Assembly: GCA_016215705.1 (NCBI GenBank)
Contig: JACRIR010000005.1
Span: 1 to 16,755, forward strand
Length of the DNA stretch: 16,755 bases
DNA from: Candidatus Poribacteria bacterium
GTDB lineage: Bacteria; Abyssobacteria; SURF-5
Direction: 5' to 3'
The translations under genes and the position numbers were made by a program. The notes under the pieces were generated by a model. The model was not told where the DNA came from. It saw only the letters and a list, made by a program, of their open reading frames with translations, and searched no databases. Numbering within the stretch: position 1 is the first letter of the stretch; every line of letters starts with the position of its first letter. This document shows positions 2,190 through 16,509 of the stretch, piece after piece.

Positions 2190-2885
2190 ATGGACCCGAA
2201 CGAAGAAGGAATAGACCGCATTCTGGTGGTCGACGATGACCCCATAAACGCGGAACTGCTGAAGACAAAGTTGACGTCTCTCGGCTACGTAGTCACGACC
2301 GCCCATAGCGCCGAGGAAGCGCTCGACGCCGACCGGAAGGCGCGCCCACACCTGATCCTGCTCGACGTTGTGCTTCCGGAAATGAGCGGCTTCGAGGCCT
2401 GCCGGAAGTTGAATGAGACTCACAAGGACAGCTATGTTCCCGTCATCCTCGTGACCTCGATGAATGACGTCACGAGTAAGATAAGGGGCCTCGAGAGCGG
2501 CGCGTACGACTACGTGACGAAGCCGTTCGACGCGCAGGAATTGCTCGCCCGGGTGCGCTCAGCCCTGCGCACAAAGAGGCTGTATGACGAACTCAGGGTG
2601 ACCCGCGAGAAACTGATCGAGGCCGAGAAGCTTGCGGCCCTCGCGGAACTCACGATAACTCTCCATCACGAAATAAATAATCCCCTGCAAGCGATCGTGC
2701 TTTCGGCTGAGAACATGGCGGGTGACCTGCCTGAAGGCAAGGTGTCAAAGGATGACATCGACATAATCCTCAAGAGCTGCGCGAGGATCGATGAGGTCCT
2801 AAAGAGGATTGTGAACCTCAAGCGGGTGCGTTCGGCCAGATATCTCGGCCAAACCGACATGCTTGACCTCGACAAATCGATTTGA
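2190..2885 (+). CDS. Receiver-HisKA protein lacking an ATPase domain
   Basis: This 231-aa cytoplasmic signalling protein has two parts. Residues 10-125 are a CheY-like receiver with the acidic cluster D15-D17, phosphoacceptor D59 (LILLDVVLPE), T89/S90 (VTS) and K111 (TKPF). A coiled-coil linker (~130-155) leads to a HisKA dimerisation helix with H-box TLHHEINNPL; H160 is the expected phospho-histidine. The protein stops about 70 residues later with no N, G1 or G2 boxes, so it cannot bind ATP as a kinase would. It could receive phosphate on D59, relay through H160, or dimerise with another kinase. I saw no broken HATPase remnant in the 27 bp before the convergent copper ATPase gene, so the short form is probably native. 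No start codon lies in frame upstream of ATG 2190 in the 57-bp gap after the propeller gene. A Shine-Dalgarno-like AGGAGG sits at that gene's stop, too far away to serve this start. Confidence 0.88.
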   Translation: MDPNEEGIDRILVVDDDPINAELLKTKLTSLGYVVTTAHSAEEALDADRKARPHLILLDVVLPEMSGFEACRKLNETHKDSYVPVILVTSMNDVTSKIRGLESGAYDYVTKPFDAQELLARVRSALRTKRLYDELRVTREKLIEAEKLAALAELTITLHHEINNPLQAIVLSAENMAGDLPEGKVSKDDIDIILKSCARIDEVLKRIVNLKRVRSARYLGQTDMLDLDKSI

Positions 2886-7046: not shown

Positions 7047-8165
7047 TCAGGATTCTCGATTCCTGGCGCTCCAATCATTTGTGAAGAACATTGCTGAGAG
7101 AACGACAGGAAGCGTGAAAGAGAACTGAGTTCCCCAGTCCTTTCTCGATTCCGCCCAGATTCTGCCGCTGAACTTCTCGATAACAAGTTGGCAGAATTGA
7201 AGACCTAGTCCGTGGCTGCGGCGCGCCGAGCGCAGACGCTCGACCTCAATCGCCGTATTCTCTTGAAACACGCGCGCCAGGACGTCGGACGGAATTACAT
7301 CGCCGTCATCAAAGACATTAAAAAGCATATCCTTATCCCCTGCCTTGTAGTGTGCTGAGACCACGATTCGGCCGCCGGGGTGAGTATACCGGGCGGCATT
7401 GTCAAGCAAATTAAAGAAAACGCGATCGAGAAGGCTTCGTTCGACAATTATGTCGGGCTGTTCAGGCGGGAGATTCCACTCCAGCGTGACGCCTTCCTTT
7501 ACCAGCAGCCGAAAATCGGCGCATACGGCCTCAATCACTGCATTGGGACGCACGCATTCGACGACGAGTTCTCGATCCCTTAACGCCGGCACACTGCGGA
7601 TTGAGCGGACCATCTCGGACAAGCGGCGCTCACTGCGCTTGGCCGCCTTGAGCATGTCGCAGATACGTTCAAACGCAGAGTCCGTATGTCTCTCCAGTTC
7701 CATTTCCATCACATCGAGAGACGCCTTGATGACCTGAAGAGGCGACGCAAGGTCGTGGTATATCATGGATAAAGCCATGTCTCCGGCGTCAGACAGTTCT
7801 TCACTCTTGTCTGCCGCTTCAGTTTTTCCTTGTTCGCCGGCCCCCTTTACAATGCATATGACTTTCCGAAGTTTCCCGCAATCGTCGAATATAGGGAATA
7901 CGGATTCGAGCCGCTGGCAGCGCTTTAGCACTTCAACACGGCCTATGTCATCGATTCCCATGCTGACAGCCTTGCTCGAACAACCATTGTTGCACGGGCT
8001 CAGGTTCAATCCTCGAAAGAGGCTGCACAGATCTTTATCGATCTGTTGTTTCTCATTGAGATTGAAGAATTTATGAAAGCTCGGGTTTGCATTTACAATG
8101 CGGAAATCGGTGTCAACAATAACGATGGCATCGGAGACGTGTTCAAAGAGAAACGTTGATTCCAT
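7047..8165 (-). CDS. Soluble PAS-domain sensor histidine kinase
   Basis: The 372-aa protein has no transmembrane segment, so it senses a cytoplasmic cue. Residues ~5-108 form a PAS domain (SDAIVIVDTDFRIVNANPSF). It holds a cysteine set C47, C58, C62 with further Cys at 83, 96 and 104, suggesting metal, cofactor or redox sensing (inference). A Glu/Lys-rich linker leads to HisKA with H-box MIYHDLASPL (H137). The ATPase domain has the N box FFNLLDNAARYTHPGG (N252, N256), G1 DDGD (286-289), an F-box-like VFQENTA and G2 HGLGLQ. A ~20-residue tail follows the last strand. ATG 8165 has GAGGTGA at a good distance. GTG 8189 would add eight residues but lies almost inside the palindrome at 8193-8212. 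No response regulator is adjacent; the receiver-HisKA protein 4 kb away is a possible partner. The upstream neighbour is the 72-aa gene, 74 bp away. Confidence 0.93.
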   Translation of the reverse strand: MESTFLFEHVSDAIVIVDTDFRIVNANPSFHKFFNLNEKQQIDKDLCSLFRGLNLSPCNNGCSSKAVSMGIDDIGRVEVLKRCQRLESVFPIFDDCGKLRKVICIVKGAGEQGKTEAADKSEELSDAGDMALSMIYHDLASPLQVIKASLDVMEMELERHTDSAFERICDMLKAAKRSERRLSEMVRSIRSVPALRDRELVVECVRPNAVIEAVCADFRLLVKEGVTLEWNLPPEQPDIIVERSLLDRVFFNLLDNAARYTHPGGRIVVSAHYKAGDKDMLFNVFDDGDVIPSDVLARVFQENTAIEVERLRSARRSHGLGLQFCQLVIEKFSGRIWAESRKDWGTQFSFTLPVVLSAMFFTNDWSARNRES

Positions 8166-8192
8166 GCGTAGACTCACCTCACTCTGCACATC

Positions 8193-8608: not shown

Positions 8609-10426
8609 TCAGGAAGTTTTCGTCAGGAGGGATTCGCGGACAGCCTCGGTCTCGCGGGAAGGCTGAACGTTGAGGCTTGCGGAGAGGATTTTTCTGCAGC
8701 GGTCATAAACTATTAGGGCTTCGGCTCTTAGGCCCAGTTGCAGATAGCAAATCATGATGCCCCGGTAGAACTCCTCGGTGAGGTCATCCACTTCCAGGCC
8801 TCGTTGATAGCAAGCCGCAGCTTTTTTCCACTGTTTGGCGCCTTCCCAATAATGCGCCAGTTTGTTGATGGACCGCAGGAATTTACTCTGCAATCTTTCC
8901 CGGGGGGAAAGTATCCACGGTTCGTCGTTTTCTCCCGCAAGAAACGGTCCACGGTAGATATCGATTGCAGTTTGAGTCATTTGAATAGCCTGCCTCACGT
9001 TGCGCTCATCTGAATCCTTCCGCCACATCGTCTCTGCTTGTGAGAGGAGGTTCTCGAAGGTCCATGCGTCCACCCAACAGCATCGTGGGTCCATTGTCAA
9101 GCGGCATTCACGAAGCTGAATAGCATCGTGGCGGCCGATAAGTTTTCGGAGGCGGTGCAATGTGGTCGCAAGAGATCGATGCGCCACGTCTCCGTCGGCC
9201 TCGGGCCAAAGGGTATCAGCCAGTTGCGCATCGCCTGTTCCTTTGTCAAACGCCCCAAAAGCAATCAACGCCATGAGCAAGGACAGCGGTCTTTGCTGGG
9301 CCTTTCTGGGGAATTTGACGGGAGTGTCATCCTTTGTCAGCATGAAGCGGCCGAGGGTGTAGATTTTGAGCGTCCATGGCCAGTTCTCCAGATGGATGGG
9401 GGGAGTTTCAGGAACAAGGCTGCGTTTCCTGATAATGTCTTTGACATATTCGATCTCGATTCCTGCTTCGAGCGCATGAACGCACAGTTCTGCCGCAATG
9501 GCGGGTCTGTCAACAAAAGCGCTCAGATATCCTCGTTCTCTCCCGATCTTTAGGGCTTTTTGCAGGGAGTCCAGGCCGGATATCTCGTCGCACTGCTCGA
9601 AGGCGAATTGCGCCTTGGTCCACAATGCGTTGAACTGCGCCTCCGGACTGGCGCTGCGGCGCGCATCCTTGAGAGCGCGAGCAAGATGTTCAGAGGCTTG
9701 CTGATGCTTTCCCTGCTCATGCGTGATGCAGGTCTTCACCAGATGAGACATTGCACTGAGGAAAGGAGACCCTGTCTCGACACCTGTCTTCAGGGCGAGG
9801 TCGGCTTGAAGCGAGGCTTCTTCTATATCGCCACGAAGCAGGGCTTCGCGAATGCCGACAAGGTGATGGTCGGACATGGCTTCGACGGACCAGATCACTT
9901 CACAGGCCGGGAACGGCTCGGCCACACCTCTCAGGGTGAGTGGTCCGATGTCACGGAGGGTATATCCGGTGCGCTGTCCGGCGAGCTTGTGCACCAGGCC
10001 GGCGGCAAGTATTTGGCCTCCATGAGCGCACTCGCACAACCTTTTTGCGATAAGCAATGATTTCCCGAAATAGCCGTCCTTTTCGGGCCATGGCTCACCC
10101 GCGTGCAGGCCGATGCGCACCGGCAGGTGATTTTCGCCGCTTGCCCGTTCATTTCGGAGGGAGGCTTCCTGCTGGATTCTTACCGAGCAGGCCAGGGCAT
10201 CCAGGACATTCGGAAAGACGAGCATGAAACCATCGCCGAGATTCCTTAATTCCACGGGCTGACCGGCCGGTCGGGTCTGTCCCTGATACTCCTCGCGGAC
10301 AATTTCGGAGTGCTCGCGCCACAATGTCCGGCTTTCGCCTTCGTTCAGCGTTTGGAACGACGGCGCCGGGTAGTCAACGTCCGTGAAGAGGAAGGTTACT
10401 ATTCCGCTTTGAGTCTTTCGTTGCAT
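8609..10426 (-). CDS. Cyclase-homology / winged helix-BTAD (SARP-like) fusion regulator
   Basis: This is a 605-aa cytoplasmic protein. Residues ~8-180 are a class III nucleotide cyclase domain (TFLFTDVDY with D16; LRNLGDGFMLVF with D65; YFGKSLLIAKRLCECAHGGQI). Residues ~190-345 are a helical repeat region of the MalT/AfsR kind (GIEIEYVKDIIRKRSLVPE). Residues ~350-460 are an OmpR-type winged helix (WTLKIYTLGRFML, LADTLWPEADGDVAHRSLAT, LHRLRKLIG, CWVDAWTFENLL). Residues ~470-605 are a bacterial transcriptional activator domain with TPR-like helices (YRGPFLAGENDEPW, AAACYQRGLEVDDLTEEFYRGIM). Canonical cyclase Lys is R61 and the catalytic Asn is L125, while Arg (R129) is kept, so cyclase activity is doubtful. 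The usual position of this output module is behind a STAND ATPase; here a cyclase domain replaces it. The gene starts 14 bp after the STAND gene's stop and is probably translated from the same mRNA. Confidence 0.9.
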   Translation of the reverse strand: MQRKTQSGIVTFLFTDVDYPAPSFQTLNEGESRTLWREHSEIVREEYQGQTRPAGQPVELRNLGDGFMLVFPNVLDALACSVRIQQEASLRNERASGENHLPVRIGLHAGEPWPEKDGYFGKSLLIAKRLCECAHGGQILAAGLVHKLAGQRTGYTLRDIGPLTLRGVAEPFPACEVIWSVEAMSDHHLVGIREALLRGDIEEASLQADLALKTGVETGSPFLSAMSHLVKTCITHEQGKHQQASEHLARALKDARRSASPEAQFNALWTKAQFAFEQCDEISGLDSLQKALKIGRERGYLSAFVDRPAIAAELCVHALEAGIEIEYVKDIIRKRSLVPETPPIHLENWPWTLKIYTLGRFMLTKDDTPVKFPRKAQQRPLSLLMALIAFGAFDKGTGDAQLADTLWPEADGDVAHRSLATTLHRLRKLIGRHDAIQLRECRLTMDPRCCWVDAWTFENLLSQAETMWRKDSDERNVRQAIQMTQTAIDIYRGPFLAGENDEPWILSPRERLQSKFLRSINKLAHYWEGAKQWKKAAACYQRGLEVDDLTEEFYRGIMICYLQLGLRAEALIVYDRCRKILSASLNVQPSRETEAVRESLLTKTS

Positions 10427-10440
10427 AGACTTATGGCATC

Positions 10441-13400
10441 CTATCGGCGGCGGGCGCGAAGCGATTCAACCATTTCCAAGTGCTTGGGCATGCCGAGTTG
10501 ACGGTACATAGCCACGGCCTCAGCCAAGAGAGAGCGCGCCTTCCCACGATCAGCCTTGCCGTTGCGCTCAATCAGCATGCGCGCGTACCATCGCCGAACT
10601 TCCGGTTGCTCGGTTCTAAAGGGAAGCTCGTGCGCCTGGCGAAGAGCGGTCTCGAAATGCTCTTCAGCTTTTTCCCACTGCCGCGCGGTCATCGCGGCTA
10701 TGCCGGCAGTGGTCTGAACGAGCCCGGCGTAACATGGCCGCAACACGTTGCCGGTAGCGATTGCCTCCAATGCAAGGGGATAGAAATCCGAAGCCGCATC
10801 CCACTCGCCAAGCACGGCCAGTCCTTCGATTGCCGCATCGAGCAGCGACCATGAGTCGAGTGTATTCGGTTGCCCGGAGACGGGGAGAATATCCCTTCTT
10901 TCATTGAAGAGAGCCAATGCGGCGGCCTTGTCTCCGGAGTATGCCGTAAAAACAAAAAGAGAGCCGACACAGTGGCCGATCGTCATTCCCGGAATCTCGG
11001 ATTCCACTCCCTTCTGAAAATTCCTTCGTGCGTCTTCCCATCGCCCGCGCCAGAATTGGGCAAGACCAAGGACCGTATAGTTGAATGCGATCCATCCTAT
11101 GCCGATATTGAGGGATGACTCGAGATCGCTCTTGACGTGATTCTCAAACTGCTCCAAATCCCCGGTCACTGCCGCCTCCCGCCGGCATTCGATGCGGGCG
11201 CCGAACCAACGAGCGTCTTCATTGCCGGAGCGATTGGCAAGCGACTCCATTTCCGTCCAGACCCTTGCGGCATCAGCAATGAGCCCCGCCCGAAACAGAC
11301 CTACCTGCGCATACGAGAGAGCGAGGGCGGCTCCGTAGAGATCACCGGCTGCCTGCATCAAGTCTGCTCCCTGCAAACCCGCCTCCGCTTCTTCCGGCCC
11401 TTGCCAATACATGTGGTGGAGCGCGCCTTTGCGGACAATAACGGGACCCAGGAGTTTCTTGTCGCCGGATTTTTCGGCGATCTCAAGCGCTCGCGCAAAC
11501 GCGTCGTGCGCGGCGGCGTACCCCGCATTGGGCAGATAGCTGAGGACAAAACCCGTTGCGGCCAGTAAGAGACAGCGAGCCGGAATCTCCCGGTCACCGA
11601 GCGTTTCCAACCCGCGCTGAGCGATCTGGTAGGCTTCCGCCCATCTTTGCGCGCCCAACAATTGACTTGACATTTCTGCGCAGACCCCGCCCATTGCGTC
11701 AGAATCTCCGAGTTTTTCGTAAAGTGACAGAGCCTGGTTCCAATCGTCCAGGGCCTCCGGCAGCCTGCGCAGACTCCGAAGCGCAAACCCGCGTTTGTAC
11801 AGGAGTTCGGCCCGGATTCGTGCCTGGTCTGCCGGCTGCAAAGAAAGGGCGGTTTCATAGAGCTCCAGGGCATTCTCAAAAGCCGTGGTTTCGAGCGCGC
11901 GGTCCCCGGCAAGCGAGAGATAGTAGACCGTCACCAAGGAGTTCGCCGCGGCGCCTGCCTGACAGAGATGGTGCGCCAAATCAGCCGCATGCTCCTTCAA
12001 AGCATGAGAGTGTACACGCTCGATTGCCTCAGCGACACGCAGGTGCATCCTTTGCCGCCGGGGGAAAGAAAGGCTTCCGAGAAGGGTTTGCCGAATCAGT
12101 TCATGCGAAAACGTGAACTGGGCATGAGAGGCCACCGGAGTCGAAGATATGAACTGAGCGCGTTCGGCGGACTCAACGGCGCCGAGCAGCGCCTCTTCAT
12201 CAAGGTCCACCAATTCTCTGAGCAAGTCGAATCTGAAACTGCGGCCCACTACAGCGGCGACACCCAGCGCTTGCTGACATTCGTTGCTGACCCGTTTCAG
12301 ACGTCGGCCTATGAGCCAGCGTATGCTGCGTGGCACTTCGAGTTCTTTGGGACCGAGGCCGGCGCGCCAATTACCCCTGCTGTCGAACAACTTCCCCTCT
12401 TCGCACAGGTCCCTGAACATTTCCTCCACAAAGTACGGGTTCCCCTCGGTCAGGTGGTATATGTGTCTCACGAAACCGGACGGCGGTTCGCTGGCGGTTC
12501 GAGCCCGAAGCATCGCGGACACTCCGGCTTCAGGAAGTCTTTTTAAAGTCGTCAGGTATGCGAGGCGCCGGCGGCGAAGGTCTTCCAGAACGTCGGCCAG
12601 CGAGTGGGCCACATCGAGGTCGACATCGCGATAGGTGCACACGATGAGGACGGACATCTCATGAAGCCTGGGCGCCAGATGGTGAAGCAGTTGCAGCCCT
12701 GCGCTCATGGCCCACTGGAGGTCTTCACTGATGAGAAGAAGCGGCTGGGTGCGCCCTCCGCGTTCCAAGAAGTCACATACGGCGTTGAACAGACATCTTT
12801 GCGCGTGCTCTGGCGGCAAATCCGCCGCCGGCGGAATCTCCGGAAAACGCTGGCGCAGTTCCGGCAACAGCCTCGAGATTTCCGGGGCGGCCTCTCCCAA
12901 AGCCTCAAGCAACACTTGTGGCTCCACATCTCTCGCGGCCGACTCAAGAATCTCGACGATCGCCGAATAAGGGGGCGCCCCCTCCTCTTCGTAGCAATGG
13001 CCGGTGAGAACGAGGAAACCGCGCCTGCGGGCCTCGCTTTCGAGTTCTTCCGCCAGCCGCGTCTTGCCGATTCCGGGTTCGCCGCCGATCATTACCAGGG
13101 CGCCGTGGCCACGGGCAGCCTCCTCGAGCAGACGCCGGAGATCGTCAAATTCGCTTTCACGGCCAATGAAAGGCGTGCGTTCCGCGAGAGTCGCCAAAGC
13201 AAAGGCGGCGGGAGTCTCCTCCCGCCGCCACTCGACTTCGTAGACTTTTCCTTCGTCGCGGAAACCTCTGAACTTGAAAAGACCTCGGTCAACAAGCCGG
13301 ACTTGTTGCGCCCCGCTTACGAGGTCGCGGACGGTCTCGGAAACCATTATTTGCCCGCCCTGCGCGTATTCGCACAACTGTTTGGCGAGCACGATCGGCA

Positions 13401-13746
13401 TCCCGAAGTAGTCTTCTCCTTCGTGGATCGGCTGGCCGGCGTGCAGGCTGATTCGAACGTTAAGCCTGCGCTTCTCCCCGTGTCGCCGATTGTGCCGATG
13501 CACGGCTTCCTGCATCGCAACGGAGGAGGCGACGGCGTTCCTGACACCATCGAACACCACCATCAGACCGTCGCCGAGGTTTCTTGGCTCGTGGCCGCCG
13601 CGCGCTTCGACGGCTTTGCGAAGAAGCTCAAAATGCGTCCGCCACAGGGCATTGGCTTCGTCGTCGCCCAGTCTCTCAATCTCGTCGGTTGAGCCCTCGA
13701 TGTCCGTAAAGAGAACTGTGACTGTTCCGGCGCGCGAGTCGTCCAT
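10441..13746 (-). CDS. Cyclase-homology / STAND ATPase / TPR signalling protein
   Basis: The 1101-aa product is a large cytoplasmic signal integrator. Residues ~7-175 are a class III cyclase domain (TVLFTDIEGST with D15; RNLGDGLMVVF with D59; YFGMPIVLAKQLCEYAQGGQI). Residues ~190-500 are an AAA_16/STAND NTPase starting PFIGRESEF. Its Walker A is GGEPGIGKT (221-229), its Walker B is LLLISEDLQWA (E341, D342), and a winged-helix-like segment follows. From ~600 to the C-terminus there are many TPR-like helical pairs (LYETALSLQPADQARIRAEL, WEKAEEHFETALRQA). In the cyclase domain the Lys, Asn and Arg positions are R55, V119 and Q123, so it is probably a nucleotide-binding or dimerisation module rather than an enzyme. 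There is no DNA-binding domain; that output lies in the next gene. ATG 13746 has GAGG 7 nt upstream. Proteins of this architecture are common but poorly characterised. Confidence 0.92.
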   Translation of the reverse strand: MDDSRAGTVTVLFTDIEGSTDEIERLGDDEANALWRTHFELLRKAVEARGGHEPRNLGDGLMVVFDGVRNAVASSVAMQEAVHRHNRRHGEKRRLNVRISLHAGQPIHEGEDYFGMPIVLAKQLCEYAQGGQIMVSETVRDLVSGAQQVRLVDRGLFKFRGFRDEGKVYEVEWRREETPAAFALATLAERTPFIGRESEFDDLRRLLEEAARGHGALVMIGGEPGIGKTRLAEELESEARRRGFLVLTGHCYEEEGAPPYSAIVEILESAARDVEPQVLLEALGEAAPEISRLLPELRQRFPEIPPAADLPPEHAQRCLFNAVCDFLERGGRTQPLLLISEDLQWAMSAGLQLLHHLAPRLHEMSVLIVCTYRDVDLDVAHSLADVLEDLRRRRLAYLTTLKRLPEAGVSAMLRARTASEPPSGFVRHIYHLTEGNPYFVEEMFRDLCEEGKLFDSRGNWRAGLGPKELEVPRSIRWLIGRRLKRVSNECQQALGVAAVVGRSFRFDLLRELVDLDEEALLGAVESAERAQFISSTPVASHAQFTFSHELIRQTLLGSLSFPRRQRMHLRVAEAIERVHSHALKEHAADLAHHLCQAGAAANSLVTVYYLSLAGDRALETTAFENALELYETALSLQPADQARIRAELLYKRGFALRSLRRLPEALDDWNQALSLYEKLGDSDAMGGVCAEMSSQLLGAQRWAEAYQIAQRGLETLGDREIPARCLLLAATGFVLSYLPNAGYAAAHDAFARALEIAEKSGDKKLLGPVIVRKGALHHMYWQGPEEAEAGLQGADLMQAAGDLYGAALALSYAQVGLFRAGLIADAARVWTEMESLANRSGNEDARWFGARIECRREAAVTGDLEQFENHVKSDLESSLNIGIGWIAFNYTVLGLAQFWRGRWEDARRNFQKGVESEIPGMTIGHCVGSLFVFTAYSGDKAAALALFNERRDILPVSGQPNTLDSWSLLDAAIEGLAVLGEWDAASDFYPLALEAIATGNVLRPCYAGLVQTTAGIAAMTARQWEKAEEHFETALRQAHELPFRTEQPEVRRWYARMLIERNGKADRGKARSLLAEAVAMYRQLGMPKHLEMVESLRARRR

Positions 13747-13875: not shown

Positions 13876-14292
13876 TCAAGACCCCACCATGACTGAAACA
13901 CGAACCCTGCCTGCCGGAGAAAGAAAAGTAATAGTTATCTCTCCCTTTCCGTCGGGGTCCAGGATATCCAACTCCTCACTGGCGCCATAATACAATCTCG
14001 AGAAGAAGTGCACCGGGCGATTCTCTTGAATTGACTGGACAAGTTTCTGCCGCATTCTTTCCATCTGCGCGTCCGGCCACTGCTCCATATGATCAGCCTC
14101 GTCACCGAGCATCGCTCTTATGCCGGGAGAAAGGGTGTTGAGTCCTCCCGGCGTGATGAGAGTGTTGTATTCAGGATGCGATGCGACCGCGGCCGGTTGA
14201 GCGAAGAGTAAGTCCATCGCCTTAGTGGCATCGGTCTGCATTGTTACGCGATAATCCTCAAACTGTTCCAACGTCATGTTTACGCTTGGCAT
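13876..14292 (-). CDS. Unrecognised 138-aa protein
   Basis: I do not recognise the family. The protein starts MPSVNMTLEQFEDYRVTMQ, is helical in its first ~100 residues (ALASHP-like and DEADHMEQWPDAQMERMRQKL segments), and ends with predicted strands (ITITFLSPAGRVRVSVMVGS) after an acidic turn ILDPDGKGE. It has no signal peptide, transmembrane helix, cysteine or zinc motif, so it is probably soluble and cytoplasmic. ATG 14292 is preferred because GGAGG lies 7 nt upstream. The frame stays open to GTG 14532, which would give 218 aa with a Cys-rich extension (CEKAG...CSRTSS...CQQCGG), but that start has only a weak ribosome site. The gene is 129 bp upstream of the STAND gene on the same strand and may be cotranscribed with it, from the promoter at 14563-14590. 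Confidence 0.75.
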   Translation of the reverse strand: MPSVNMTLEQFEDYRVTMQTDATKAMDLLFAQPAAVASHPEYNTLITPGGLNTLSPGIRAMLGDEADHMEQWPDAQMERMRQKLVQSIQENRPVHFFSRLYYGASEELDILDPDGKGEITITFLSPAGRVRVSVMVGS

Positions 14293-14562: not shown

Positions 14563-14590
14563 ATTATATCATTCCTAAAATCGGTGTCAA
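14563..14590 (-). promoter_or_regulatory. Consensus sigma-70 promoter for the 138-aa gene
   Basis: The minus strand reads TTGACA (14590-14585), a 16-bp spacer and TATAAT (14568-14563). Both hexamers match the vegetative sigma-factor consensus exactly, in an AT-rich stretch unlike the surroundings. It points toward the 138-aa, STAND and BTAD genes and could be the main promoter of that block. Confidence 0.75.
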
Positions 14591-14851: not shown

Positions 14852-14920
14852 TTGCGCATTGCGGATTGTGCGGCGAGCATCTCTTGTAGTTTGAAACTGA
14901 AACTTGGAACCTGAAACCCG
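14852..14920. repeat. Low-complexity dispersed repeat segment
   Basis: This stretch combines TTGCGCATTGCGGATTG (14852-14868) with the GAAAC-rich run TTTGAAACTGAAACTTGG and CCTGAAACCC (ending at 14919). Both are simple-sequence repeat families common between genes in environmental bacterial genomes. The first recurs as tandem heptamers at 14984-15016. No coding function is evident. Confidence 0.5.
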
Positions 14921-14939
14921 TCTTCTGAAGAGGCCCGAT

Positions 14940-16409
14940 ATGCGTGAAAGCGGCGGACTGAGCGTCTCAAGGTGGTCGTTGGGATTCCGGATTGCGGATT
15001 GCCGATTGCGGATTGGAAGAAGAAGGCAGTTAACCGGTCTATGCGCAGCCATTTTGGTTGTCATTCTCGCGGTTTGCGTGTCACGGCTCGCTTACTGCCA
15101 GGAAGCGGGCGCTGAGCAAGCAGATCCTGAGCGCGTTTGCCCTCTCGGCCCGCTTGCGGACAAATGGAAGGACTGGCCGCAGTCGCAGAATTTCAAGATT
15201 ACACTCGAGTACCGGAACTATACGTCCTTCGAAGGCGAGTCGCGAGCCGACAGCCGCGATTCGATAAACGAAGGCCGCTTGAGGGTCGAATACGACAACT
15301 GCTTTCGCGACAATATGCGCGTCTATGTCAATGCGCTGCTCCAGGCCGATGACGACAAGTTCACGCACGGGTTCGTTGACGATCTCGAGGACGACGACGT
15401 GAGGCGCAACTACTTGAATTTCACCGAGGCGTTCCTCGATATGTACTTCGAGACCTCCGACCTGCGCCTCGGCAAACAGATAATCAATTGGGGGAAGGCC
15501 GACGCGTTCAATCCGACCGACAACGTTACTCCGACCGACTACTCGAACCTGCTCGATGACGAGGATATCGGAGTGGTCGCAGCCAACTACAGCTTCTATT
15601 GGAAAGATTGGAGCCTTCAACTGATCGGTGTCCCCGGCTTCACGCCGACACGGCTGCCTCCTCGAGGGACCCGCTTCTCGCTGATTCCGCCCGACTCGCC
15701 GCTCCCCGTCGAGGACCCTGATTTGCCCCCGAACACAATCGAGAACTCGCAGGTCGGCGCCCGACTCAAGACGTCGTATCGCGGATGGGATTTCTCCGCG
15801 AGCTACTATGACGGCGTGAAGGATATCCCGTCGCCCGACCTCCGTTTCAGCAAAATGTTCATTCCATTTCCGCCGTTTGCCCTTTCGATTCCTTCGACTA
15901 TCGTACCCGTCTATAACCGGTTCCGCGCCTTCGGGGGCGATTTCGCGACCACCTTTGACAAGTGGGGTCTCCACGGCGAAGCCGCCCAGTTTATTTTCGA
16001 CGGCGATATGCAAGACTCTTACTTTCAATACGTCCTGGGGTTCGACTACTCGAAGAGCGACATCATCCTTGACCACGACCTTTTCATCATTGTAGAATAC
16101 ATTGGCTTGGACGTGACCGACCAGGGCAAAGACATAAGCACGGGAACTCCGCTCGACAAGGTGCTGATGAGCGCATTCGCAACCAACATAAAATACGAGT
16201 TCACGGAATACACGAGGCTCGAGGTGAGGGGAATCGTGGATTTCTTCCAGGGTGACGACTACTATGTCCAGCCGCAGTTGATACACGAGATGACCGACAA
16301 TTTCGAAATAACGCTCGGGCTGGATATCCTCGGGGGACCCGAGAACACCTTCTTCGGACAATTCAAGGACAACGACAGGATGTACGTGAAACTGAAATAC
16401 ACGTTCTAA
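14940..16409 (+). CDS. DUF1302-like outer-membrane beta-barrel protein
   Basis: The 489-aa product carries a long N-terminal leader: about 30 mostly polar/basic residues, then the hydrophobic core LTGLCAAILVVILAVCVS (~31-48), with probable cleavage after the Ala/Cys region near residue 53. The mature part is rich in alternating amphipathic strands and aromatic residues and ends in Phe (KLKYTF), the normal C-terminal signal of outer-membrane barrels. The motif RLGKQIINWGKADAFNPTDN (~176-195) followed by TPTDY is typical of DUF1302/alginate-export-like proteins. ATG 14940 is chosen for GAAGAGG 6 nt upstream; a TTG at 14904 lies in repeat DNA. Within the leader, codons come from ATTGCGG heptamer repeats (14984-15016). 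The following gene is LolA-like. In other genomes such pairs accompany RND/MMPL exporters for lipids or other hydrophobic cargo, so an outer-membrane export role is likely but unproved. Confidence 0.85.
   Translation: MRESGGLSVSRWSLGFRIADCRLRIGRRRQLTGLCAAILVVILAVCVSRLAYCQEAGAEQADPERVCPLGPLADKWKDWPQSQNFKITLEYRNYTSFEGESRADSRDSINEGRLRVEYDNCFRDNMRVYVNALLQADDDKFTHGFVDDLEDDDVRRNYLNFTEAFLDMYFETSDLRLGKQIINWGKADAFNPTDNVTPTDYSNLLDDEDIGVVAANYSFYWKDWSLQLIGVPGFTPTRLPPRGTRFSLIPPDSPLPVEDPDLPPNTIENSQVGARLKTSYRGWDFSASYYDGVKDIPSPDLRFSKMFIPFPPFALSIPSTIVPVYNRFRAFGGDFATTFDKWGLHGEAAQFIFDGDMQDSYFQYVLGFDYSKSDIILDHDLFIIVEYIGLDVTDQGKDISTGTPLDKVLMSAFATNIKYEFTEYTRLEVRGIVDFFQGDDYYVQPQLIHEMTDNFEITLGLDILGGPENTFFGQFKDNDRMYVKLKYTF
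14984..15016. repeat. ATTGCGG tandem heptamer repeat inside a coding region
   Basis: There are four full copies plus a partial one of a 7-bp unit: ATTCCGG, ATTGCGG, ATTGCCG, ATTGCGG, ATTGG. The array lies inside the predicted signal-peptide region of the barrel gene and encodes FRIADCRLRIG. Because 7 is not a multiple of 3, a change in copy number would shift the frame. Confidence 0.8.
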
Positions 16410-16419
16410 GGCAGGTCCA

Positions 16420-16509
16420 AACCGCAAAGACGCAGAGAGCCCAAAGAAAAAGCAACAAAAGATGGAACATGAAGGCATAAATACGCGGGGTCTGCGACCC
16501 TTTGCGGTT
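16420..16509. repeat. Inverted-repeat element between the barrel and LolA-like genes
   Basis: AACCGCAAAG (16420-16429) and its exact reverse complement CTTTGCGGTT (16500-16509) bound about 70 bp. The interior starts with a purine-rich GACGCAGAGAGCCCAAAG run. This matches a common dispersed repeat family (cgcaaagacgc type). It lies in the 134-bp gap between the two genes, after the barrel stop and before the next ribosome site. No gene or clear terminator T-run is present in this gap. Confidence 0.6.

Follow-up and report, generated by a model that had tools for sequence, protein, structure and literature searches.

Two adjoining genes in the window, which is the whole 16,755-bp stretch of DNA analyzed and an entire contig of a 5.47 Mb genome in 270 contigs, each begin with a class III cyclase-homology domain (CHD). 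In the first protein, termed P2 here, the CHD is followed by a STAND ATPase and TPRs, and in the second, P1, it is followed by the tail of a SARP-type regulator. The whole is best explained, at a probability of roughly 45%, if P1 is a SARP activator that carries a CHD in place of its lost ATPase and is coupled to the P2 sensor by a CHD heterodimer. From the sequence comparisons we hold with moderate confidence that P1 would be a SARP-type transcription activator that is recruited to the P2 sensor via the paralogous CHDs. Regulators that combine CHD, STAND and DNA-binding parts are already known; what is new, and was seen once, is that the parts are distributed over two genes that both encode a CHD and that the output is of the SARP type.

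Both ORFs are intact and lie on the minus strand, with P2 first in transcription order. P2 (10441..13746) is a protein of 1101 amino acids with CHD-STAND(AAA_16)-TPR architecture. Its CHD spans aa 7-173 (13228..13728, minus strand) in the alignment and is recognized by Pfam as Guanylate_cyc (aa 4-169, 1.8e-11). A profile of our own places the STAND NTPase at aa 193-598 (11953..13170, minus strand), with the Walker A motif GGEPGIGKT. Pfam detects AAA_16 at aa 192-369 (5.3e-28) followed by TPRs, the arrangement of a STAND NTPase, and the TPR region extends over aa 601-1101 (10444..11946, minus strand). The Pfam scan of P2 returned no DNA-binding family. Homologues of the STAND-TPR core are found in both same-family genomes, with 49-51% identity over the matched region, and one of them is 51% identical over the whole protein. 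The same core carries a different CHD in one of these genomes (G002), placed elsewhere in the CHD tree, and a Ser/Thr kinase instead in the other (G001), thus the N-terminal modules have been swapped on P2-type STAND-TPR cores. P2 aa 32-765 also match the TOMM system kinase/cyclase fusion model TIGR03903 with 196 bits, however this is far under its curated cut-off of 705.75 bits and P2 lacks the kinase part.

P1 (8609..10426, minus strand) has 605 amino acids and starts 14 bp after the P2 stop codon (gap 10427..10440, minus strand). By itself, the Pfam cyclase match of its CHD (aa 7-179; 9890..10408, minus strand) stays below threshold (0.021). The domain was assigned by alignment and by pairwise similarity to the P2 CHD (38% identity, ~1e-34) and to the chains of the solved cyclase Ma1120 (about 1e-13), where both metal-binding Asp residues are present. 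It is followed by a MalT-like helical segment at aa 196-339 (9410..9841, minus strand; weak TPR_MalT match, profile), an OmpR-type winged helix at approximately aa 352-448 (9083..9373, minus strand) and a BTAD at aa 452-601 (8624..9073, minus strand; PF03704, 1.2e-24). The winged helix is weak in Pfam by itself (Trans_reg_C, 0.073) and sits directly before the BTAD. A profile built from the P1 C-terminal region and its relatives matches AfsR (structures 8hvr, 8jke and 8k60; 9e-22) and EmbR (2fez; 2e-14) across winged helix and BTAD, and the conserved residues of both domains are kept in P1. The Pfam scan of P1 returned no ATPase family. An AlphaFold single-chain model of P1, calculated from few alignment rows, has a pLDDT of 47.7, which is too low for structural conclusions. 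The initial annotation had proposed two genes separated by 14 bp that both start with a cyclase domain, one with STAND ATPase and TPRs and without a DNA-binding domain, the other with the MalT-like region, winged helix and BTAD and without an ATPase. This description of the parts is borne out by the ORFs, the Pfam matches and the profiles.

The same annotation had further understood the pair as one STAND/SARP regulator split into two genes, and here the data point elsewhere. P1 was searched in 290 genomes across the domain and thereafter in 12, 195, 400 and 7 genomes of four other phyla, with some overlap; in the search of 400 genomes, scoring was confined to three candidates per genome. The source phylum is represented by only three genomes in the collection. 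The matches are of two separate kinds, those that cover the CHD only (aa ~5-200) and those that cover the C-terminal part (from aa ~185-350 to ~600), which belong to other regulators. Among the matches listed, none spans both the CHD and the C-terminus of P1, and no second CHD-MalT-BTAD protein appears in about 900 genomes; on plasmids, no place covers 80% of P1. The CHD-only matches that were fetched are CHD-STAND proteins or proteins with a C-terminal CHD, and those of the latter that were scanned are alpha/beta hydrolase-CHD proteins. The other half of P1, ~410 residues from aa ~190 to 605, is 35-45% identical to the C-terminal end of STAND-TPR-winged helix-BTAD proteins of ~1050-1130 aa from several unrelated genomes. 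These relatives are single chains with an N-terminal AAA/STAND ATPase, and hence P1 corresponds to the tail of a STAND-MalT-BTAD regulator in which a CHD replaces the ATPase half. A profile of the P2 STAND domain finds no match in the ATPase of these MalT-BTAD regulators, and the homologues of P2 combine their STAND part with either a CHD or a kinase; we therefore rejected the division in two of one ancestral STAND-SARP protein. By sequence, the P2 STAND belongs to a CHD-STAND/kinase-STAND lineage that is separate from the source of the P1 C-terminus. We also rejected a single frameshifted gene, as P2 ends together with its full-length homologue (1101 versus 1097 aa) and P1 starts with a complete CHD of its own.

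The CHDs themselves tell a closer relationship. In a tree of 44 rows, the CHDs of P1 and P2 fall in a clade of five with those of three CHD-STAND proteins (two from G722, one from G841; support 99/96), to the exclusion of the three other CHDs of the same genome that could be placed. From this placement we conclude that the CHD-STAND lineage is the source of the P1 CHD. An exclusive sister relationship of the two CHDs is neither established nor rejected (AU p 0.38); P1 shares 10 exclusive CHD residues with P2, and likewise 10 with the G722 protein L134. The P1 CHD forms a long branch of 1.2-1.45 changes per column. A duplication of the 5' end of P2 itself would be the simplest source of the P1 CHD. 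Only six cyclase matches were found in the ~5.5 Mb genome, and those of P1 and P2 are two adjoining ones; because they are neighbors among so few and lie in a common, well-supported clade, their adjacency is more than would be expected by chance. In a PF03704 scan of the genome, P1 alone is a clear BTAD protein; the other matches are weak and partial, and most likely stem from TPRs in general. A separate scan across genome contigs returned a single BTAD relative, a yield limited by the rare peptide patterns it uses.

Class III cyclase sites are composite, with the metal/phosphate half contributed by one subunit and the base/arginine half by the other. Both metal Asp residues are kept in P1 and in P2, and neither CHD carries the complete class III catalytic set of phosphate loop, K/D or E/G pair and Asn-Arg. 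At the positions of Ma1120 K101, D157, A164 and R168, whose numbering we follow (PMC4215837), P2 has R, D, V and Q and an intact GST phosphate loop. It thus retains metals, loop and Asp, with Lys changed to Arg, Asn to Val and the transition-state Arg to Gln. P1 has R, G, L and R at these positions, its loop is broken (YPA), and the Arg is kept. Every one of the 44 aligned CHDs apart from P2 has the transition-state Arg, and the loop Thr is kept in 40 of the 42 other CHDs. Since the sites are composite, the lesions complement each other only in a P2-P1 pair. A P2 homodimer would have no arginine and a P1 homodimer no loop, while a P2-P1 heterodimer would unite metals, loop and arginine in just one of its two sites. 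Such a pattern is to be expected for a pseudo-heterodimer, although two proteins allow no statistics. Ma1120 is active with Ala at the position of the transition-state Asn (PMC4215837), thus a CHD is not inactivated by losing only the Asn. The R/G pair and the Leu of P1 could mark a site that only binds, or one that is decaying. Taken together, the close kinship of the CHDs and their complementary lesions lend support to the idea that the CHDs join P1 and P2.

Upstream of P2 lies a predicted extended sigma70-like promoter with perfect hexamers, TTGACA-16 nt-TATAAT with a TG before the second hexamer (14563..14590, minus strand), a call that consists of the 12/12 consensus match. Between this site and P2 is a small ORF of 138 aa (MPSVNMTLEQF...; 13876..14292, minus strand). 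It matched no Pfam or NCBIfam family, and a weak homologue (phmmer 4.5e-5, small set) is located immediately 5' of a hydrolase-CHD gene in a different genome (L143, G782). Neither the promoter-like site nor this ORF had been mentioned in the initial annotation. A role of the locus in anti-phage defense was considered and rejected: P1 has no PADLOC match and P2 has only weak similarity to the PycC cyclase of at most 24 bits.

If the two proteins formed an established pair, relatives should recur as neighbors, and this co-occurrence, which had been put forward as a check of the pairing, did not hold up. Flanks were read, typically over 3-8 kb, with some contigs ending sooner. No BTAD gene is found beside the P2 homologue in either of the two same-family genomes, nor near a CHD-STAND gene in any of ~30 loci from other genomes and plasmids, and no CHD gene is found near a MalT-BTAD regulator in ~20 loci. 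The homologues thus occur alone, an outcome that the initial annotation had named as one that would speak against its proposal. The nearest arrangement is in Microvirga ossetica, where a BTAD-TPR gene is located between genes of two CHD proteins, 1-2 kb from each. The adjacency of P1 and P2 looks like a unique reshuffling of known components.

These parts have several known counterparts. The Mycobacterium Mclx proteins (Rv0386, Rv1358, Rv2488c) have a CHD-AAA/NB-ARC-LuxR architecture, and two of the three CHDs lack catalytic residues (PMC4452763). Like the pair described here, they bring together a CHD, a STAND-type ATPase and a DNA-binding domain in one regulator. However, all parts are on one chain, the DNA-binding domain is LuxR and not winged helix-BTAD, and there is one CHD per regulator. 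AfsR, a large SARP of winged helix-BTAD-NOD-TPR order, likewise combines the SARP domain with STAND and TPR parts, but in a single chain with the SARP domain at the N-terminus and no cyclase domain. The STAND-MalT-TPR-winged helix-BTAD regulators that resemble the P1 C-terminus (L043, L045, L121) have their own N-terminal ATPase, no CHD and no adjoining CHD gene. P2 shares its architecture with CHD-STAND-TPR proteins such as L007 in G002 and L133/L134 in G722, and its CHD clade with those of G722 and G841; proteins of this kind on Cupriavidus plasmids are annotated as adenylate/guanylate cyclase domain-containing. They differ from P2 in that no BTAD partner is nearby and that all aligned ones keep the transition-state Arg. 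A fusion of BTAD and CHD in one chain has a precedent. Sinorhizobium terangae encodes a protein of 702 aa (NZ_CP121660.1, 88799-90904) in which winged helix and BTAD are followed by an alpha/beta hydrolase and a degenerate CHD. BTAD and CHD hence do occur on one polypeptide, although in reverse order, with the hydrolase between them, without a MalT segment and without a CHD-STAND neighbor in 10.6 kb. The arrangement of sensor and SARP parts on two genes, each with its own CHD, was seen once. In the literature accessible to us, no paper links BTAD to a cyclase domain; a cyclase survey of 2004 (PMC2447327) is indexed with 'BTAD' twice, and an earlier mention of a BTAD-linked cyclase is possible.

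By analogy to AfsR, we infer that P1 provides the SARP output and P2 the STAND/TPR input, and that the CHDs connect the two. P1 derives from an ordinary STAND-MalT-BTAD regulator in which a CHD from a CHD-STAND protein has taken the place of the ATPase/sensor half. P2 and P1 are probably co-transcribed. The TPR/STAND part of P2 might sense a ligand and switch with ATP, and the related CHDs might dimerize as P2-P1. The state of P2 would then govern how the winged helix and BTAD of P1 are presented to promoters and RNA polymerase, with DNA binding at a putative target gene. In AfsR, the SARP domains dimerize side by side on the -35 element and contact sigma region 4, and the NOD and TPR parts hold them in check (PMC10936776). 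A P2-P1 heterodimer would have at most one full site, with the metal/phosphate half from P2 and the arginine half from P1, and this composite site might serve nucleotide binding or weak catalysis. The common strand, the gap of 14 bp and the promoter-like site upstream speak for the pairing. Against it stand the single occurrence and the long branch of the P1 CHD, whose R/G and Asn-to-Leu changes may mean decay. A stricter version, in which the duplicated CHD is an obligate heterodimerization or coupling device through which a STAND sensor without DNA-binding domain acts via a SARP activator without ATPase, with the composite CHD-CHD nucleotide site as the switch, seems unlikely to us.

P1 might instead act alone. 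Its CHD would then be a constitutive or nucleotide-controlled homodimerizer that replaces STAND oligomerization and allows a SARP dimer on direct repeats, with P2 as an independent neighbor. The AfsR SARP domain does dimerize on DNA and does not need NOD and TPR for its activity (PMC10936776), and CHD-STAND proteins are solitary in all other loci examined. That the neighboring CHDs are close relatives, with complementary and not identical residue losses, makes this somewhat unlikely. The same long branch and lost active-site residues, in a protein that was seen once, could also be what remains of a recent chance fusion, in which after duplication a CHD-STAND 5' end came to lie on the tail of a BTAD regulator and now decays under relaxed selection. 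However, the P1 ORF is intact over 605 codons and still encodes the metal Asps and the transition-state Arg as well as the residues that are conserved in the winged helix and BTAD, and we regard such decay as quite unlikely. Finally, metals, phosphate loop and arginine come together in the heterodimer alone, and with Ma1120 active without the Asn (PMC4215837) one may imagine that P2-P1 makes a cyclic nucleotide as a working class III cyclase with a single site, comparable to mammalian C1/C2, and has the SARP part as bound output. On the P1 side, R/G stands in place of the base-specifying K/D or E/G pair and Leu in place of the Asn, so that a true cyclase is very improbable.

Should the preferred reading, a SARP activator coupled to a STAND sensor by a CHD heterodimer, be correct, the functions of a single-chain STAND regulator would be distributed over two proteins by a duplicated dimerization domain. 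As a soluble bacterial system with transcription as output, the pair would resemble the C1/C2 pseudo-heterodimer of mammalian adenylyl cyclase, and it would give a concrete role to the catalytically incomplete CHDs on STAND proteins. If not, the locus would be a one-off domain shuffle in a family where the N-terminal module is freely exchanged on the same STAND-TPR core, with two different CHDs and a Ser/Thr kinase.

The genes around the cyclase-homology domain (CHD) proteins P1 (CHD-BTAD) and P2 (CHD-STAND-TPR) include a PAS-HisKA-HATPase histidine kinase gene at 7047-8189 (-), which lies about 420 bp downstream of P1 on the same strand. A further protein of 231 aa (2190-2885 (+)) combines a receiver with a HisKA dimerisation domain and is without a kinase ATPase domain. 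Divergently oriented from the P2 and P1 genes is the gene of a 501-aa DUF1302-type protein (14904-16409 (+)), likely an outer membrane protein; the minus-strand ORF overlapping this gene (15081-16478) is spurious.

Upstream of P2 we found a small ORF of 138 aa (13876-14292 (-)), which starts about 270 bp downstream of a candidate sigma70-type promoter with an extended -10 element (14563-14590 (-), 12 of 12 consensus positions). A search for its family membership matched no Pfam or NCBIfam family. It has a weak homologue in genome G782 (L143:1716-2330 (+); phmmer 4.5e-5 in a small set), with which it shares the motif WPDAQ...ER, and directly 3' of this homologue lies an alpha/beta hydrolase-CHD gene. 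The 138-aa ORF might encode a small partner of CHD proteins.

In Microvirga ossetica (NZ_CP016619.1, 642-653 kb, L207), two CHD-protein genes flank a BTAD-TPR regulator gene, each at a distance of 1-2 kb. Genome G841 carries CHD-bearing ORFs in a tandem run adjoining a CHD-STAND gene (L135:1339-8035 (-)).

CHD and STAND are also found C-terminally in the 1600-1660-aa proteins of family f270 (L183:4805-9670 (+), similar loci L184-L193). In L183, the one member submitted to a domain scan, the N-terminal end is a TadA/CpaF-type secretion ATPase (T2SSE), and this unusual T2SSE, CHD and STAND architecture likely recurs in about 10 genomes. In the same-family genome G001, a Ser/Thr protein kinase replaces the CHD on a P2-like STAND-TPR core (L063:8743-12492 (-)), and thus the N-terminal module has been exchanged within one family.
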